64,000 nt of DNA from contig NZ_JAMYDU010000007.1 in assembly GCF_024138395.1 (NCBI RefSeq), positions 124,001-188,000 on the forward strand, written 5' to 3'. Position 1 is the first letter of the stretch. Each line of letters starts with the position of its first letter. This document shows, piece after piece, positions 3,358 to 60,627 of this stretch. This DNA comes from Pseudomonas mandelii. GTDB taxonomy: Bacteria > Pseudomonadota > Gammaproteobacteria > Pseudomonadales > Pseudomonadaceae. The position numbers and the translations under genes are program-made. Under the pieces are notes generated by a model. It did not search any database, was not told the DNA's origin, and saw only the letters and a program-made list of their open reading frames with translations.

Positions 3358-4353
3358 ATGTCATTAGAAACCCAGGAGTCAGTCCTCCCAATGCGCGAAA
3401 TGGACAAAATTGAGCTAGAACCGGCCAATCGCCCGCCCCAGCGCTTTCATCGAGGTCGGCTGGGCCAAGTGCTGGAGCGCTTCCTTGACAGCCAGGTTTC
3501 CCGAAAAAGCACGGATTACAGCCTGATCCAGCTGGATCAGCTGTGGCGCGAGGCGGCGCGCATTGATCCGGCGATCGGGTTAAAACTGTTCGCGCTGTTC
3601 ACGCCTCAGGACTGGCACGTCCTGGCTTATCTTTGCCTGTACAGCCCCGACGTTTTATCGGCTATGCAACTTTGGGCCCGGTACGCACCGCTTGCGTCGG
3701 ACACAGACAATGTGAAGTTGGTGAATGATGACAATGGCGTCGGAATGGAGTTATGCATCGACGCGCCAAAAGAGTTGGCGCGGTATGTCATCGAACACTA
3801 CGGCGTGATGGCCATCGCGCAATTGCGACGTGGAACGGGGCAGGATGTGCAGCCGACTCTCGCAAAATTCATGCATTCGCGTCCCTCGTATTACAAGCAA
3901 TACACCCAGTGGTTTGGCGACCGTATCGAGTTTGACTGCCCGGTGAACTGCTTCTATTTCCATGCGCAAAGCCTGAGCCTGCCGATGCAGACCCGTCATC
4001 ACGGGATGTTGGAGTTATTGACTCAGGAACTGGATCGACGGATTGCCGCGCATCGCAATTTCAGCGGTTGGTCAGCCAAGGTTGCCGAAGGAGCGCGACG
4101 ATCTCTGGCGAGAGGTGAAACTCCAAATCTGGACGATCTGGCAAAGGCGCTGCACCAGACACCCAGGACATTACGTAGACGCCTGGAAGAGCAAGGCACG
4201 ACCTTCAGGCAATTACTCGATCAGATTCGTGCAGAACTGGAACTGCATCTTGAATTGCAAGGCGAGTCGCTGACGGAGATCGCAGCCCAATTGGGATACG
4301 GCGATTTGACGGCTTATCTCCATGCCCGAAGTCGATGGCGCAACGCTAAATAA
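3358..4353 (+). CDS. AraC family transcriptional regulator, C-terminus short
   Basis: A 331-residue protein with the layout of OruR-type AraC regulators: an effector-binding (arabinose_bd-like) domain over about residues 40-215 and a C-terminal pair of helix-turn-helix motifs. The first HTH is around NLDDLAKALHQTPRTLRRRL (260-279); the second includes EIAAQLGYGDLTAYLHA. The protein ends at SRWRNAK, a few residues after the RW of the second HTH, whereas family members usually continue with a G-x-x-P-x-x-(W/Y)R segment, so the DNA-binding domain may be clipped. The start at 3358 leaves only 34 bp to the divergent sterol-desaturase gene; M12 (3391) or M15 (3400) are alternative starts. Confidence 0.8.
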   Translation: MSLETQESVLPMREMDKIELEPANRPPQRFHRGRLGQVLERFLDSQVSRKSTDYSLIQLDQLWREAARIDPAIGLKLFALFTPQDWHVLAYLCLYSPDVLSAMQLWARYAPLASDTDNVKLVNDDNGVGMELCIDAPKELARYVIEHYGVMAIAQLRRGTGQDVQPTLAKFMHSRPSYYKQYTQWFGDRIEFDCPVNCFYFHAQSLSLPMQTRHHGMLELLTQELDRRIAAHRNFSGWSAKVAEGARRSLARGETPNLDDLAKALHQTPRTLRRRLEEQGTTFRQLLDQIRAELELHLELQGESLTEIAAQLGYGDLTAYLHARSRWRNAK

Positions 4354-4428
4354 TTGGCATCTGCGAAACCGCTGAAAATCAAAAGATCGCAGGCTTCGCC
4401 AGCTCCTATGCCGACCGCATTTCTCCAT

Positions 4429-4983
4429 TTAAAAATTTTCTGCCTCGGGCGCACGGAAGGCCTTACTGTAGTAGCCAGACTGGTCGAAACAGCAAACCTG
4501 CTTCTTGCCGGATGCAAGCATATCGCAGGCATCACCAATTCGTTTTGCGCGCGTCTTAAGTTGCTTGGCTGAAGTAATCCAGTGTATCCAGTCTATTCGT
4601 GCGATGGTCGTCGTATTGTTCCAGACTTTATGAGCCTCAGGACTGGCTGCCAGTGCCTCCTGAAAATCTGGTGGGATGTCAGGCTCGGGTTCCTTCTTCA
4701 CAGGGGTTAGCTCTAGTGTAACGATATCCCCAACGGCCGCGCCTGCGGCTTCGTATAACTCTCTACTTACCTGCAGCCAATGGCTCAGCTGACCATCCGG
4801 CTCAAGGGTTGCCTGGAAATGGTGCCCATCGATTGTGCCTTCAACTGTCGTCCTTCCTCGCCTCGGAAGCTGTTCACTCGCGTCTCTTGGCAGTACTACG
4901 AACGCCCACGACGTATCATTACCAGGCTTTGCCGGACGAAGAAGCTTTGCTTCGAATCGGGATTTCACATCGATTGTTGTCAT
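4429..4983 (-). CDS. YdeI/OmpD-associated family protein with DUF1905 domain
   Basis: A 184-residue protein. The N-terminal half (about 1-95, with FEAKLLRP and VVLPRDASEQLPRRGRTTV) matches the DUF1905 beta-barrel type. The C-terminal part (PPDFQEALAASPEAHKVW onward) is like the YdeI/OmpD-associated family, which has conserved W and I-W-I segments. The function of the family is poorly known; some members are linked to resistance to bacteriocins or peptides. The stop is at 4429, convergent with the AraC gene. The sequence just upstream of its start on its own strand contains GTTAGGC and is followed by a 38-bp palindrome, which hints at a mobile boundary (see findings). Confidence 0.75.
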   Translation of the reverse strand: MTTIDVKSRFEAKLLRPAKPGNDTSWAFVVLPRDASEQLPRRGRTTVEGTIDGHHFQATLEPDGQLSHWLQVSRELYEAAGAAVGDIVTLELTPVKKEPEPDIPPDFQEALAASPEAHKVWNNTTTIARIDWIHWITSAKQLKTRAKRIGDACDMLASGKKQVCCFDQSGYYSKAFRAPEAENF

Positions 4984-5387
4984 TGCAACGCCTCCACCTA
5001 ATACGCCTAACTACTATTTGGCGACATCACTGTCGCGTTTAAACGCGACAGTGATGTCGTATAACGTTCCTTGTCGTCCTGCAAGCCCTTGTCTAGCCAG
5101 GAGGAATTGCAGCAAACGCGACATAGCCCAGGGAGAAACGCGACATGGATGACGCCAAGCTCAGTTGCGGTAAAGATCCAGTGTAGAAGGTTGACGCTAA
5201 CTATTTGCCACTAGTCTGTCCAGCGGCTGCTATCGGTCGATTAAAAGTCATCGGCTAATCGGTCCCGCTTTGCACATCACCGCAAACCCGTAGCTGTTGG
5301 CAAAACACGCTCTCTAGCGCGAAGCGGTGATCCCTTTGTTCATCCGTCGCGCTTCTACACCCGATAGCTGCCTCATAAGAGGATCTA
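4984..5387. other. Gene-free interval with palindrome and short direct repeats
   Basis: No convincing gene lies here. It holds the 38-bp palindrome (5022-5059) and further AAACGCGACA copies at 5114-5123 and 5136-5145. The rest (5150-5387) shows short open frames only, without good ribosome-binding sites. Confidence 0.6.
5022..5059. repeat. Perfect 38-bp palindrome centred on GTTTAAAC
   Basis: The left arm CGACATCACTGTCGCGTTT (5022-5040) is followed directly by its exact reverse complement (5041-5059) with no spacer. The inner decamer AAACGCGACA recurs in direct orientation at 5114-5123 and 5136-5145. Short repeats clustered near one end are typical of some insertion-sequence termini (for example the IS21 type), so this may be a remnant of element ends; that is inference. 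No transposase is nearby. Confidence 0.7.
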
Positions 5388-6461
5388 CTACGCTTGGAAG
5401 AATCGATCAGGACGGCATGGGCAAAGGGCACTGGACGCCTTGTCATCGATGATCTCCTCGCTGGCAAGACGCCCAACTACCGCCGCCAAAGTAATTCCAG
5501 GGTGCATTGCACAAACGTAAACGCCGCCCACTTTTGGTAGATAACCGATGACGGGGATGCCATCGGCAGGCATGGGCCTGAGTCCGACACAAGCCCATTC
5601 CGGATCTATGGAAACAACCCCATGGAGTTCGTTCTGGATTGTCTTGGCAGTTCGAAGCGCTATCGCTGCCGGCTGATTTTCCATGGCGTCGTCCAGGTAA
5701 TCTTCTGCCGCAATCAACGCACCGTCCGAACTTTGCCTCACTTCCATTTCAGGGCTGGAGATGAGGGTGTGCACGAGGTTGGGTTGTGACTTGTAACGGA
5801 TGAAAATGGCAGGCGAGGCCTCTATTGGCAGGGGCACTTCAAGCATGTCTGTCAGCTTCGTAGTGCCTGTCCCGGCTGCCAATACGACAATATCGGCATC
5901 GATGATGCCTATTGTTGTTTTGACTCCGGTCACCTTTGCATTCTGGGTTACAAAACCGAGAACTCGCGTCTGAGTGAGAATTTTCGCCCCACATGCCTCG
6001 GCACCTGCGATTAACGCATGCGAAACTGCCACTGCGTCCAGCGCCCCTTCTTCAGCCGCATATAAAGCAGACTGAGGAGGGTTTTTGAGATTTGGTTCAA
6101 GATCGAGAATCTGCGATCGAGACACCAGGTTTGCCGAAGCTTGGTTACCTGAAACCGGCAGCGCTCCACTCGACATCACGCTGTAAGACAAGGCGCCTGT
6201 CCATCGTATCTTCAGGCCAGACAGCTGCGTTTCGAGTCGGCGATACTCCTTGATTGCAGAACCGCGCAGTTGTGCAATTGGGTCAGGTTCGGGGTGAGAG
6301 GTATTGATCCAGGCGAATGAACTGCCAGTCACTCCCGAAGCTATATCTTCAGCCTCGACCAAGGTGACATTCGCGCCTTTACCGACCAAGTGATACGCCA
6401 ATGACGCGCCCACGATGCCTGCACCAACGACAACGACTCGTTTGCCCCGACCATTTTCCAT
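5388..6461 (-). CDS. FAD-dependent oxidoreductase (DAO / D-amino-acid oxidase superfamily)
   Basis: A 357-residue flavoprotein. The N-terminal VVVVGAGIVGASLAYHL (8-24) is the Rossmann GxGxxG motif that binds ADP of FAD, followed by the acidic VTLVEAED. The C-terminal GLRPMPADGIPVIGYLPKVGGVYV and the GITLA segment fit the second FAD motif of DAO-family enzymes (glycine oxidase, D-amino acid dehydrogenase, sarcosine oxidase-like). These oxidise amine substrates to imines with H2O2 or quinone reduction; which substrate is used here cannot be said. It lies downstream of the MFS pump gene on the same strand with a gap of about 105 bp and may be a separate unit. Confidence 0.8.
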   Translation of the reverse strand: MENGRGKRVVVVGAGIVGASLAYHLVGKGANVTLVEAEDIASGVTGSSFAWINTSHPEPDPIAQLRGSAIKEYRRLETQLSGLKIRWTGALSYSVMSSGALPVSGNQASANLVSRSQILDLEPNLKNPPQSALYAAEEGALDAVAVSHALIAGAEACGAKILTQTRVLGFVTQNAKVTGVKTTIGIIDADIVVLAAGTGTTKLTDMLEVPLPIEASPAIFIRYKSQPNLVHTLISSPEMEVRQSSDGALIAAEDYLDDAMENQPAAIALRTAKTIQNELHGVVSIDPEWACVGLRPMPADGIPVIGYLPKVGGVYVCAMHPGITLAAVVGRLASEEIIDDKASSALCPCRPDRFFQA

Positions 6462-23280: not shown

Positions 23281-23609
23281 CCGTTACGTCCTAACGGCTA
23301 CAACGCCTTGCGTCATTGCCTACGCGTGCGCCAGAATCCGCTGGCTTGTGCGGCTGTGGGGCAGGCTATATCGTTTCCCTGTCACTGAAAAACAGTGATC
23401 GGGTTTGGTAGCCCGCTGTGGTAGCCGTATGGCAACACCTTATGCAGTCTCTGTTTTGGACTCGCGTTTATATGGTGGTCATGCGTGGGGCTCCTTTGTG
23501 AGCGCCGGGTTTCCTACTGCAGCCGGTCTACCAACCCACGTATGGCCGCCACCCTTCGTTTGGTAGCGAGGGTGATGGCTCCTTAAAATCTGCGGAAGGA
23601 GTTTCATCT
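23281..23609 (+). promoter_or_regulatory. Long structured leader upstream of the DUF6124-like gene
   Basis: A 5' region with a hairpin TCACTGAAAAACAGTGA (23384-23400) directly followed by TCGGGTTTGGTAGCCCG (another short stem), repeated TTTGGTAG motifs (also near 23563), and a final AATCTGCGGAAGGAGTTTCA before the ATG. I recall leaders of this style before small Pseudomonas proteins, but no Rfam family can be named. A shorter relative lies upstream of the gene at 60355. The rest of 22953-23280 shows no gene. Confidence 0.45.
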
Positions 23610-54644: not shown

Positions 54645-54741
54645 TGAGGTTCCGTCTCGGATGGGGGCTGGCATTTTGGAAATTCTACGCTACGGAACTG
54701 GGAATAACGTGATCCTATTTTGTGGATTTGGGGAGCAGAAG

Positions 54742-54773
54742 TAATGTCTGCTTTCGGCCAAAAGCGGACATTA
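54742..54773. repeat. Short near-perfect hairpin, outer arms of the dispersed repeat
   Basis: TAATGTCTGCTTTCGG is followed by CCAAAAGCGGACATTA, pairing with only three mismatches and no loop. It equals the outer arms of the dispersed hairpin repeat with the middle missing. It lies between the MATE start and the nucleotidyltransferase gene. Confidence 0.7.
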
Positions 54774-54833
54774 AATAATTCACCCAAGGCCTCGGTCAGG
54801 TAAGCTCACCTCCAGTCACCATGGAGGGTATTG

Positions 54834-55394
54834 ATGCATTCACTGACCAACGAGCAAGTACTGGCGATCGCCAAAGGAAATGTCATCAACCAGCAATTGC
54901 TGACGCTCCTGCCGACGCTGGAAGTCCCTCACTGCATGCTGACAGCGGGATGTCTGTTCCAGACCTTCTGGAATCATCAAGCAGGACAGCCTGCCGAATG
55001 GGGAATCAAGGATTACGACATCGCTTATTTCGATGAGGATCTTTCATGGGAAGCCGAGGATCGAGTGATCACACGGGTTCGCCATGCCTGTTCCCATCTC
55101 AACGTCCACGTAGAGGTACGCAATCAGGCCCGCGTTCACTTGTGGTACGAATCCAAATTCGGCGTTGCCTATCCTCAAGTGAGAAAGGTAACCGATGGCA
55201 TAGATCGCTATCTGATCAACTCGACCTGCCTGGGAGTTGATGTCTCCACAGGGGAGTTGTACAGCACACACGGCCTGGACGATCTTCAGAACAACCTGCT
55301 CAGACTAAACGAACTGAACCCTCTGCCTAGCTTGTTTAACCAAAAAGCGGCTAGCTATCGGGAGCGCTGGCCATGGTTGACACTAGTCAGCTAA
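54834..55394 (+). CDS. Nucleotidyltransferase-family protein (DUF925-like)
   Basis: A 186-residue soluble protein; ATG 54834 follows GGAGGG and is preferred over the TTG just before it. The segment GIKDYDIAYFDEDLSWEAED carries the D-x-D motif (after the strand) of the minimal nucleotidyltransferase fold found in the YbjN/DUF925-type group, and HVEVRNQARVHLWYESKFG is the next conserved strand and helix. The target of nucleotidyl transfer, if any, is unknown. A hairpin repeat copy begins just after its stop, as with several small genes downstream. Confidence 0.75.
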   Translation: MHSLTNEQVLAIAKGNVINQQLLTLLPTLEVPHCMLTAGCLFQTFWNHQAGQPAEWGIKDYDIAYFDEDLSWEAEDRVITRVRHACSHLNVHVEVRNQARVHLWYESKFGVAYPQVRKVTDGIDRYLINSTCLGVDVSTGELYSTHGLDDLQNNLLRLNELNPLPSLFNQKAASYRERWPWLTLVS

Positions 55395-55396
55395 AC

Positions 55397-55463
55397 GTCC
55401 GCTGCGGGTCGTTGCAGCCTCTCGCGACAAGCAGCAGTCAGCCAAAAGCGGTCCACTCGGCGT
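55397..55463. repeat. Copy of the dispersed hairpin repeat
   Basis: CGTCCGCTGCGGGTCGTTGC, then CTCGCGACAAGCAGCAGTCA and GCCAAAAGCGGTCC. The outer arms GTCCGCT and AGCGGTC face each other. It follows the nucleotidyltransferase stop directly. Confidence 0.75.
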
Positions 55464-55822: not shown

Positions 55823-55855
55823 GTTAATTAACCTTTCGGACGTTGGTCGGTTGCA

Positions 55856-55942
55856 CCCTTTTCCGCTATGGGTCGATTGCAGCACTTCGCGACAGGCAAG
55901 AATCGGCCAAAAGCAGCCAGTTGCGATCGGCTGCAAACGGTC
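55856..55942. repeat. Copy of the dispersed hairpin repeat
   Basis: GGGTCGATTGCAGCACTTCG, then CGACAGGCAAGAATCGGCCA and AAAGCAGCC, plus a further GCGATCGGCTGCAAACGGTC. It follows the NIPSNAP gene and precedes the convergent membrane protein gene. Confidence 0.7.
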
Positions 55943-56544: not shown

Positions 56545-56770
56545 AACCTAACCTCAGTTGATACTTGTGTATTGTGATCGAGATATGCTAATGCGAGTGT
56601 AGACCAGAAAATTCCGGTAAATTAGAAACGCTTAGATCAAGGCACTATCGCGCATGTCGGGACGAAGACCTGCCGCTCGCCAAATTGTAGAGCTCATGGA
56701 TCGCACCATTGCGCGTATCGAGAGTTGGCATCGAAAATAAGAGAGCAAACTTGCAAGAGCGACTCTACGA

Positions 56771-56835
56771 ATGACCGCTTCGGGTCGTTTTCAGCCCTTC
56801 CCGACAGGCAGCAACCGGCCAAGAGCGGACATATA
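56771..56835. repeat. Copy of the dispersed hairpin repeat
   Basis: ATGACCGCTTCGGGTCGTTT, then CAGCCCTTCCCGACAGGCAG and CAACCGGCCAAGAGCGGACA. A near full-length copy. An open frame runs through it, which is a consequence of the repeat lacking stops in that frame. Confidence 0.75.
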
Positions 56836-56873
56836 GAATGTCATTACCCTCCATCAATCAATGCGACCGACGT

Positions 56874-57744: not shown

Positions 57745-58139
57745 TAAGTTTAAATTCGGCGAGCACGTCACCTTGATCAAAATATAAAACTGGTGAGCAG
57801 CGTGTATTGCCCGAACGCTTACAGATCAACGACTAGGGGCGGCGTTGGATGGGAGCCGGGCGGCGGCCCTAGACTGGTAGAAACATCATCGCGTGCTCTA
57901 TCTGCCCGCCCGGATGTCAGCCGCTAGAACCATTGGCTTCGTCGTCTGGTGTCATCCAGTATCCGACCATCACAGGATCTCCGGACTGGCGAGCAGATAA
58001 AAGTCGATCACCACATCCTTCAGTACAGAACCCACATCGGTCCCCTCCGCGACAGGCCGCAATCGGCCAGGAGCGGACGTTCGACTGATCAGATTAAGGT
58101 GGTTAAGCTGACGTCTTTTCCAGCGACAGGGACGAACGC
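57745..58139. other. Gene-free interval with a hairpin repeat
   Basis: It contains a GC-rich inverted-repeat-like stretch near 57836-57882 (TAGGGGCGGCGTTGGATGGG with CGGGCGGCGGCCCTA), with end arms TAGGG and CCCTA, and the right part of a dispersed hairpin at 58036-58085. No gene was seen. Confidence 0.5.
58036..58085. repeat. Copy (right half) of the dispersed hairpin repeat
   Basis: GGTCCCCTCCGCGACAGGCC, then GCAATCGGCCAGGAGCGGAC. It lies 54 bp upstream of the GFA gene. Confidence 0.7.
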
Positions 58140-58541
58140 ATGACAGAGATCTATCAGGGAAGCTGCCTTTGCACAGCCATCAGTTATGAGCTCCTGATTA
58201 CGCCAAAAGCAGTGAGTCATTGCCACTGTAATCAATGCCGCAAAGGGCACGGTGCAGCATTCGCTTCGTATGGTAGCGTGCCGCGTAGCGCACTTCGGAT
58301 ACTTAACGGTGCTAGCCACATCACTACGTATTCTTCTTCAGAATCGGTGCTACGAGAGTTCTGCGCGCAATGTGGTTCGACTTTGTTCTGGTCACGCACT
58401 CAAGGCGAATTTTCCGATTGGGTTTCGATAGCACTGGGCACACTCGACACCCCGTTCACACCTCAAAAGCAAAAACACGTTTATGTCGACTCTAAAGTTC
58501 ATTGGTATACACCATCCAACTCATCGCCTCAGAAAGATTGA
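58140..58541 (+). CDS. GFA (glutathione-dependent formaldehyde-activating/CENP-V) family protein
   Basis: A 133-residue zinc protein. The zinc ligands are visible: C9 and C11 in GSCLC, C28 and C30 with C33 in HCHCNQC, and the later pair CAQCGST. The fold pattern (AISYELLITPKAVSHCHCNQ, EFCAQCGSTLFW, SDWVSIALGTLD) is typical of GFA/CENP-V domains. Few members act as real glutathione-formaldehyde enzymes; most are of unknown function. A hairpin repeat copy follows the stop after only a few bases. Confidence 0.88.
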   Translation: MTEIYQGSCLCTAISYELLITPKAVSHCHCNQCRKGHGAAFASYGSVPRSALRILNGASHITTYSSSESVLREFCAQCGSTLFWSRTQGEFSDWVSIALGTLDTPFTPQKQKHVYVDSKVHWYTPSNSSPQKD

Positions 58542-58544
58542 CCG

Positions 58545-58597
58545 CAAGGGGGCGGTTGCTGCCGACAGGAAGATAGCGGCCAGAAGCGGACGTGCAG
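58545..58597. repeat. Copy of the dispersed hairpin repeat
   Basis: CAAGGGGGCGGTTGCTGCCG, then ACAGGAAGATAGCGGCCAGA and AGCGGACGTGC. It lies directly after the GFA gene stop. Confidence 0.7.
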
Positions 58598-58699
58598 CAA
58601 TGGACGTAAGAGGCTGCCTAATACGCCTTTAAATTGCCTTCACGTCAAATCACGATCTATGCATTAGCCTCTCAAATTCCTGTCGGCAAAAAGGGCTGA

Positions 58700-59305: not shown

Positions 59306-59425
59306 CGTTTGACTACTCCGTTAGTTGCGCATCCTTGTAGTCTCAAACATCTGGGGCTGGATACTCTTGATCATTTGCACATTATGACTGGCAGGAGCCT
59401 TAGGCGGAAATCTACCGTTGCTGAC

Positions 59426-59477
59426 CGGCAGCTAAGGGTCGATTGCAGCCGTTCGCGACAGGCCGTTGGACGGTGCG
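59426..59477. repeat. Copy of the dispersed hairpin repeat
   Basis: AGCTAAGGGTCGATTGCAGC, then CGTTCGCGACAGGCCG. A left half with loop; the right arm is cut short at 59466. Confidence 0.65.
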
Positions 59478-59588
59478 ATGACAAATGAGTAGCTATGTTT
59501 GGTCTGATGACGGAATTGATCGGGCACAGTGGGCTTTGCGCCCCTCTCAGCAGTTTACCGACTGGAGTCCATTTAGGCAGGTAGCGTC

Positions 59589-60041
59589 ATGAAAAGTGCG
59601 TTGATCTTCATACTCGCGACTCTGATCGCTGGATGCTCGACTTCAGGAACATCGATCAAGATCGGTGAGGATGGGCATTACCCCCCGACAAGCCCGGACT
59701 CAATATCTCTACTGCTGGAAGCACCTCAAAAGAAGTATCAGATCATCGCTCTAGTTGAGGGCGTCGCTGCAACCGACGACTACTTCACAAAGGCTCGAAC
59801 TGAGACCGCTGCCATTGAGGCCATGAAGGAGGAAGCCGCCCGAATCGGGGCCAACGCCATCGTTCTAACTGGAAAGAACTCTGTACCGTACGGCCAGGCT
59901 GGCTTTGCAACCACGACCGGTTCAGCAATCGCCGCCGGTAACCATTTAAACGGTTACGCCACTACTATTTCCTCGGGGCTTGGCTGGGAAAAAATCACGT
60001 TTTCTGGCACCGCTATCAGGTACATAGATAAAAGTGAGTAA
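59589..60041 (+). CDS. Lipoprotein of unknown function, apparent integron-cassette cargo
   Basis: A 150-residue protein with a lipoprotein signal, MKSALIFILATLIAGCSTSG (lipobox LIAGC). The mature part contains EAPQKKYQIIALVEGVAATD and the helix AAIEAMKEEAARIGANAIVL, the pattern of small surface or periplasmic lipoproteins related to the DUF4156 group, followed by a glycine-rich segment (TTTGSAIAAGNHLNGYA). The ATG comes 10 bases after TTAGGC (59573-59578), and an attC-like site (60048-60121) starts just after the stop. This is the layout of an integron gene cassette: short 5' lead, one gene, attC. No integrase or second attC is in the window. Confidence 0.72.
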   Translation: MKSALIFILATLIAGCSTSGTSIKIGEDGHYPPTSPDSISLLLEAPQKKYQIIALVEGVAATDDYFTKARTETAAIEAMKEEAARIGANAIVLTGKNSVPYGQAGFATTTGSAIAAGNHLNGYATTISSGLGWEKITFSGTAIRYIDKSE

Positions 60042-60354
60042 CGTCGTGCCTAACAAACGGTTCAAACCGTTCGCTTCTCTCACTGGGACCGCGTACGCGC
60101 CCCTTAACCTAAACGTTATGAATATCTGTATAGGGTCGAAAGCAGACACGCGACGCCACGTGTTCCGGATTTCAATGCTTCCGGCCAAAGTAATCACGCC
60201 TGCTTTACATACAGATCCTACACCAACCTCGGAAATAGCCCCTATCCCCACTGGAGCGAATAAACCTATAGTCACCCCATCGCCCACGAAGCGACCAGGT
60301 TTGGCGACCTGCAGATCGGATCAGTCCCTTTAAATCTGATTCGGAGTTTCACCT
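60042..60354. other. Interval after the cassette-like gene
   Basis: It holds the attC-like site (60048-60121) and, from about 60296, a leader related to that of the gene at 23610. The middle (60122-60290) shows no gene. Confidence 0.5.
60048..60121 (+). other. attC-like integron recombination site
   Basis: The R'' box GCCTAAC (60048-60054) is followed by AAACGGTTCAAACCG, and the site ends CCCTTAACCTAAACGTTATGA, in which GTTATGA (60115-60121) is the R' box. The L boxes pair as GGTTCAA with TTAACC, leaving one extra base unpaired, which is the extrahelical-base hallmark of attC. The spacing (74 bp) is within the known range. The R' box departs from GTTRRRY (GTTATGA) as expected if the bases after the first G derive from the host target. 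Confidence 0.68.
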
Positions 60355-60627
60355 ATGGATAGATACATGCCCCTCACCGGAATCGACCTGATCCCGGCCT
60401 CCCTGCTCATCGACACCCAAGCTCCACTCGACGTCCTGCACGCCATGGCTGACTACCGCATTCGCACGGTCACGCAAGTGCTGGAAAACATCGCCTTCCG
60501 CGCCGAGGTCGGTTGCGACACGGTGGTGCTGTCGGACTTTGCCAAACTGCTGGCCATTCCGTTGCGCGATGGCTGTGACTTGATGGACGTGATCGGCCGG
60601 CGCTTGCGGGCGCAGGCGGCGGAATAA
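60355..60627 (+). CDS. Small protein of unknown function, 90 residues
   Basis: The ATG at 60355 follows TTCGGAGTTTCACCT, a conserved-looking ribosome-binding site. The protein (MDRYMPLTGIDLIPASLLID, TQAPLDVLHAMADYRIRTVT, CDTVVLSDFAKLLAIPLRDG) is soluble and alpha/beta. I do not recognise a named domain. Its leader resembles that of the DUF6124-like gene at 23610, so both may belong to the same class of Pseudomonas small proteins with leader-controlled expression. A strong terminator follows. Confidence 0.65.
   Translation: MDRYMPLTGIDLIPASLLIDTQAPLDVLHAMADYRIRTVTQVLENIAFRAEVGCDTVVLSDFAKLLAIPLRDGCDLMDVIGRRLRAQAAE

Follow-up and report, generated by a model that had tools for sequence, protein, structure and literature searches.

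We asked how a gene resembling a single integron cassette came to lie, without an integrase, at positions 59573 to 60115 of the DNA analyzed here. This DNA, called the window below, is a whole stretch of 64,000 nucleotides from Pseudomonas mandelii (assembly GCF_024138395.1, contig NZ_JAMYDU010000007.1, positions 124,001 to 188,000; G000:C67:124001-188000 in our numbering), and the source genome comprises 6.3 Mb in 80 contigs. The initial annotation had described the locus as one mobile cassette that carries an attC-like site, has no integrase within view, and was inserted at a secondary site. Two questions follow from this description, namely, whether the segment is a genuine cassette and by which route it reached its present place.

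The segment opens with TTAGGC (59573 to 59578), behind which come a ribosome-binding site and the start codon of the gene (ATG, 59589); on the forward strand it extends to position 60115, the G in the last GTT. Its attC site (60048 to 60121, forward strand) contains the boxes GCCTAAC (60048 to 60054), GGTTCAA (60059 to 60065), TTAACC (60104 to 60109), and GTTATGA (60115 to 60121), and the crossover would fall at 60115|60116; all these motifs were found at the window positions where the initial annotation had placed them. TTAGGC is the exact complement of GCCTAA in the R'' box, and since a cassette circle demands such a match, the segment counts as a cassette.

The attC site was then scored with a covariance model (R1) built on 45 attC sites at 13 loci in the genus. 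These had been gathered with blast for their similarity to the window site, which was itself excluded from the model, and four further blast matches were left out, their outer box not having been found. Integrase matches over the cut-off were present at 11 of the 13 loci, contributing 38 of the 45 sites (the match was split in L038), and the other 7 sites came from two stretches without an integrase match (L039 and L014). Across the 45 sites, 91.9% of cells kept the model structure; with slid partners the figure was 21 to 52%. The window site scored 64.9 bits (E 2.4e-18), far above threshold, which confirms the attC-like site; it was the sole R1 match in the window at E<=10 and the best of six in the genome at the same level (best 150 of 2882 candidates scored), one of the six, on C19, lying inside a coding sequence as judged by eye.

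The bottom strand of the window site folds at -10.8 kcal/mol (DNA energies), and 29 of 300 shuffles were equally low. With a fold that is unexceptional when taken alone, the attC-like letters might have arisen by chance in ordinary intergenic sequence; an E value of 2.4e-18 from a model excluding the site, together with a complete integron that contains a homologous gene with an attC 85% identical to this one (see below), makes this reading hardly credible. The 45 model sites fold at a median of -15.0 kcal/mol (range, -19.0 to -4.3), and in the window site 4 of 19 model pairs are nonstandard and three model positions are missing from the distal hairpin. The site thus appears somewhat decayed, the broken pairs and a fold weaker than the median of its relatives speaking against full function.

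The gene of the cassette (59589 to 60041, forward strand) encodes a putative lipoprotein of 150 amino acids, with a lipobox judged by eye and weak domain matches below the cut-off to DUF4156 (E 0.001) and YbjQ_1 (E 0.0017). Homologues turned up in two other genomes among the 398 genomes of the genus searched. The nearest, 65% identical, is a cassette between attC sites (G279, locus L036), 2.1 kb from a full-length integron integrase and hence in a complete integron, and the attC of this gene is 85% identical to that of the window. A viral contig (L168) encodes a 61% homologue, for which R1 found no attC. When the five best candidates per genome were scored, an integron integrase over the curated TIGR02249 cut-off was present in 47 of the 398 genus genomes and absent from the genome studied here, which extends the lack of an integrase from the view of the initial annotation to the whole genome at that cut-off. 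The single cassette is likewise supported, by the exact complementarity of its start to the R'' box, the one attC, and the homologue residing as a cassette in a complete integron. Judged by these sequence features, the window gene is a genuine integron cassette without its integrase.

Cassettes of this kind have names. According to an excerpt of PMC12690207, SALIN denotes a single attC and CALIN an attC cluster, both lacking an integron integrase. The window holds one R1 match rather than two or more clustered sites and therefore differs from a CALIN, whereas its single attC, with no integrase nearby or genome-wide over the cut-off, agrees with a SALIN. It resembles a SALIN in having one attC with a gene and no integrase near and differs from it in being bounded by repeats and in a putative left-end remnant common to units found elsewhere, both described below. 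Downstream of the cassette lies a gene for 90 amino acids (60355 to 60627) with no Pfam match, whose DNA has relatives on C43, C1, C3, and C23 of the same genome and in other Pseudomonas.

On the right, the junction of the cassette reads G|TTATGAAT, and the bases past the crossover, TTATGAATATCTGTATAGGGTCG, form the edge of a repeat, here called PR, that is about 68 bp long, dispersed, and imperfectly palindromic. In fuller units the PR starts three bases past the G|TT crossover. At the window cassette the PR edge adjoins the attC crossover directly, differing in 2 of 15 bases from the attC|PR junction of other loci, and the repeat itself (60116 to 60196) is degenerate, with a weak R2 match over 60117 to 60196 in the window scan (13.8 bits, E 0.16). 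Pairing of the PR with itself held in 71.3% of cells (24 singly oriented copies), against 28 to 44% with the partners slid. A perfect palindrome was considered and rejected, the consensus profile from which it arose having taken both strands of each copy.

In the source genome, 42 PR matches at E<=1 fall into about 23 places (best 150 of 3921 candidates scored), with C67 accounting for 11 of these (141.8 to 209.2 kb) and C1 for 6 (485.0 to 501.2 kb). Further copies in the window lie at 54739 to 54776, 55390 to 55460, 55854 to 55923, 56766 to 56837, 58048 to 58085, and 58533 to 58598 (R2, E from 1.1e-14 to 0.87). Between 54739 and 60196 the PRs separate single small genes, giving a gene-repeat-gene run composed of NTP_transf_6, NIPSNAP, a minus-strand open reading frame of 190 amino acids, GNAT, GFA, a weak AAA_33 match, and the lipoprotein cassette. 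An impression, gained by eye, that the PRs across 54.7 to 60.2 kb share one orientation was dropped, as both strands score nearly alike. For five PR loci, Rfam returned six matches at E<=1, all below the gathering scores of the families; the sole Rfam match of the window at the gathering threshold is a C4 antisense RNA at 23468 to 23556 (RF01695, 71.9 bits). PRs were also seen outside Pseudomonas (L120, L121, L122, L127, and L131), in gammaproteobacteria such as Methylophaga and a Solemya symbiont, with no attC detected by R1. In three loci (L126, L115, and L085) the PR is interrupted by an identical sequence, GATTCTGTTGAAAAAGTCGG, presumably the end of an insertion sequence, suggesting that other elements also target the PR.

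The position of the PR edge behind attC sites was examined in two collections that overlap in their genomes. A scan for the edge only gave 13 loci in the species-genome collection; an attC-like site lay directly upstream in 5 of the 6 Pseudomonas loci (two detected by R1, one of them at only 17.0 bits, and three by eye) and in none of the 7 loci outside Pseudomonas. The same scan of the 398 genus genomes gave 17 loci within one mismatch, 6 of them exact, with an attC upstream in 4 of the 6 exact ones. The exact sequence GTTATGAATGTCTGC occurred in nine distinct fetched loci, each time behind an attC-like site (six by R1, two of these weak, and three by eye). G350, G290, and G265, which are among the nine, had first been retrieved with a query that contained an attC.

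Such a fixed position behind attC-like sites of varied types would also be expected if the PR were an element that inserts into attC sites and arrived after the cassette. This seems improbable, given that PRs border the left ends of units as well, where attC is absent, that ten cassette-array loci, nine of them with an integrase match, contained no PR at E<=0.1, and that most PRs of the genome lie away from the attC sites detected by R1. Within the best 150 of 3921 PR candidates, just one of the six R1 matches of the genome, at C1:497547, has a PR within 100 bp, and colocalization of attC and PR in this genome is weaker than it first appeared. The nearest listed PR to the window attC is 3.3 kb away because its own PRs score under the genome-wide threshold.

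Several arrays that end in a PR also open with one, followed by about 50 bp absent from complete integrons, a cut-off intI start, and attI. The intact intI frame matches these unit loci only in the first 44 of its 346 residues, of which the first 25 probably precede the true start, and complete integrons match the left-end query from about base 77 on. With the best two candidates per genome considered, the query matched in 65 of 364 genus genomes, and matches starting within its first 25 bases and reaching base 85 or beyond, across the portion absent from complete integrons, occurred in 20 genomes at 23 places. A profile of 17 left ends, made without any window sequence, recovered loci outside its building set and matched the window itself at 5241 to 5103 (E 3.5e-38). 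Here lies a second integrase-less unit, whose left end, cut-off intI start, and attI occupy 5011 to 5241 (minus strand; crossover 5011|5010) and which is 87% identical to the G290 unit across 243 bp. Its first cassette is a DUF1905/OmdA gene (4429 to 4983, minus strand) with no attC left and no R1 match there; the units of G350, G265, and G246 have the same gene as their first cassette.

Outside the left PR, 22 flanks, that of the window cassette included, turned out to be unrelated except for two pairs sharing 34 and 52 bases, which shows the units to occupy different places. PRs on both sides, with an attC against the right one, were found in G290 (L083), Pseudomonas sp. BN102 (L123), and P. 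frederiksbergensis DM22 (L125). One or both PRs were partial or interrupted in G196 (L115), G233 (L140), G264 (L147), plasmid pAd12 of P. fragi, G256 (L150, no attC by R1), and G150 (L141, no left PR detected). R1 found an attC in 7 of the 17 left-end loci, directly followed by a PR in three (L140, L141, and L147); in the others the attC was damaged (L134 and L139) or had no PR behind it (L137 and L142).

Outside the Pseudomonas genomes, the right-junction pattern, a looser version of it, and the left-end pattern all matched the same contig, L169 of IMG/VR, which is classed as viral; it was the one match of the right-junction pattern among 2.9 million viral contigs, and the left-end pattern matched no other. 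In the reverse complement of 4284 to 6205 of this contig, the order is PR, left end (E 7.1e-23), gene, attC (64.7 bits), PR, second left end (E 8.1e-11), second gene, and PR. The two units thus stand head to tail with one PR in common, from which it seems that the segment from PR to PR behaves as a module. The left end of G290 had no match at E<=0.001 in the plasmid and phage collections, despite the diverged unit on pAd12, and among the matches listed for the pAd12 flank (31 further records lie beyond these) there was no plasmid relative with an empty site.

The source genome holds other remains of integrons. A second stranded cassette lies on C1 at about 497.2 to 497.6 kb (L042, G000:C1:496500-498700, about 692 to 1129), with an R1 score of 28.6 bits and the same PR edge at its end; CCCG precedes its TTAGG, which is an exact left G|TT, and a left-end remnant was sought there and was absent. 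Near 39.6 kb of C4 there is an integron relic with an attC (42.8 bits), a left end, and an intI stub (L100, C4:34000-46000, about 4870 to 6260), adjoining phage- or island-like genes. Two degenerate attC-like sites (22.5 and 18.9 bits) about 450 bp apart, with a PR upstream, lie on C1 at about 474.1 to 474.8 kb (L051 and L053). A paralogous region on contig C43, examined as a possible empty site, proved to be none.

We then turned to the left side of the window cassette. A PR with a shortened right arm lies at 59420 to 59478, weak by R2 (16.6 bits, E 0.027) and matched by nhmmer over 59422 to 59465 (31.0 bits, E 3.2e-8). Overlapping its end, 25 of the 33 bases at 59461 to 59493 (forward strand) equal, without a gap, the left end of the Pseudomonas sp. 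BN102 unit. This likeness was spotted by eye ahead of testing. No shuffle equaled it in sets of 100 and 400, while five stretches behind other PRs of the window matched at 17 to 20 of 33 bases, the best of them being equaled by 5 of 100 of its own shuffles. The left-end profile score at 59461 to 59493 was exceeded by none of 1,000 shuffles, though the profile gave only E 2.5 in an open search and a stricter local alignment was exceeded by 10 of 500 shuffles. On this sequence likeness, the case that 59461 to 59493 is what remains of a left end from a PR-bounded integrase-less unit is good but short of conclusive. Between it and the cassette (59494 to 59572), neither an intI stub nor attI was matched, both of which are present at 5241 to 5011.

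These findings bear on the route by which the cassette arrived. Insertion at a secondary site, as the initial annotation had it, is poorly supported: the right flank is a recurrent PR edge, a probable left-end remnant lies between the PR and the cassette, and the base before TTAGGC is a T. We consider it probable, instead, that the window locus is a true cassette surviving in a decayed integrase-less integron unit between two PRs. The fuller form of such a unit consists of a PR, a conserved left end of about 50 bp, a cut-off intI start, attI, one or more cassettes, the last attC, and a PR. The units may have originated when an ancestral Pseudomonas integron had its attI crossover placed against a PR and then lost intI. 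Descent from one integron is suggested by the PR edge occupying the place of the right half of attI and staying near-identical whatever the last attC. The short PR-bounded segment would then have been relocated to many places, by recombination between PRs or by a transposase of an undescribed kind, giving rise to a family of units, and gain or loss of cassettes would have required an integrase acting in trans. The window locus would represent a late stage, with a damaged left PR, about 33 bp of the left end, and unrecognizable sequence, in which attI is gone and the attC is weakened, and would recombine weakly or not at all.

Several observations speak against this decayed-unit origin. The cassette starts exactly at TTAGGC, where a deletion from attI would land only by luck; both window PRs are weak (E 0.027 and 0.16), and the C1 cassette has no left-end remnant. 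The remnant at the window cassette has the E value of 2.5 and the 10 of 500 better shuffles given above. R1 detects an attC in only 7 of 17 left-end loci, the right end elsewhere being truncated or without a PR.

Some of these observations are what would be expected if a circular cassette had been inserted by a trans-acting integrase at an attG-like target on the edge of a preexisting PR, with PR edges as preferred targets. This amounts to the mechanism of the initial annotation, with the target now specified. Cassettes at attG sites were reportedly described by Loot et al. in 2024. Cassette integration at attG is generally established, according to excerpts of PMC12901181 and PMC12444791, and the window locus resembles those cases in being a cassette outside an integron with a right G|TT. 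Its exact boundaries, from TTAGGC to G|TT, fit such an event, as does the C1 cassette, and P. vancouverensis has a PR edge with CCG|TTATGAATG and no attC. At the window cassette, however, a G|TT crossover would need a G before TTAGGC, and the letter there is T, so that the junctions are G|TT on the right and T|TT on the left rather than G|TT at both ends as in an attG cassette. It further differs from the attG cases in that its junction recurs at one PR edge and a putative left-end sequence precedes the cassette. That TTATGAATGTCTGCAAAGGGT is near-identical behind differing attC types points to common descent more than to independent events, and units with attI and an intI stub on their left cannot have come from cassette insertion. 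Originally ranked first, this idea moved to second place on discovery of the left end; as an explanation of the window locus we now hold it to be possible though unlikely, the exact TTAGGC start, the free P. vancouverensis edge, and the fit of the C1 copy preserving for it something like a quarter of our belief.

A broader reading, which we regard as doubtful, holds that short gene units in Pseudomonas are moved by an undescribed system, for which the PR itself is the site of recombination or transposition. The cargoes of this system would be the integrase-less units on the one hand and further single genes on the other, and runs of genes and PRs, such as that at 54.7 to 60.2 kb and the two joined L169 units, would be arrays built by it.

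Short repeats around integrons have precedents in class 1 integrons. The integron mobilization unit was reportedly described by Poirel in 2009. Short repeats (MITEs) flank class 1 integrons, as stated in an excerpt of PMC3410848. These systems and the Pseudomonas units have in common short repeats on either side of an integron-derived segment. The Pseudomonas units are unlike the MITE-flanked integrons in being of the chromosomal type and integrase-less, in having a palindrome of about 68 bp instead of a 439-bp MITE, in carrying cassettes of unassigned function and not resistance genes, and in having no known transposase. REP/REPIN and other intergenic repeats of Pseudomonas are dispersed palindromes (excerpts of PMC2718517 and PMC3733652), and the PRs share with them a dispersed, palindromic character and a location, in the window, largely between genes. 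The PR, with its roughly 23 genome places at E<=1 among the best 150 of 3921 candidates, may equal one of these families, e.g., R178. Among the matches listed in the open-access literature we saw no account of PR-framed integrase-less units of chromosomal-type Pseudomonas integrons, and queries with pieces of the PR sequence gave, among the matches listed, papers of unrelated fields only. As far as we saw, the PR-framed integrase-less units are new, stranded cassettes and repeats around class 1 integrons being already known.

The findings offer a testable role for the dispersed PR, for which the open-access literature searched showed no description. They also provide sequence marks, namely, the PR edge behind the last attC and the left end before attI, that allow a count of these units in any genome. 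Stranded cassettes are usually explained as off-target insertions or as local remains of integrons. In Pseudomonas, a third route is indicated, in which cassettes reach unrelated places on short, PR-framed integrase-less units with a retained attI, and such a route would explain the presence of cassettes in integrase-free genomes.
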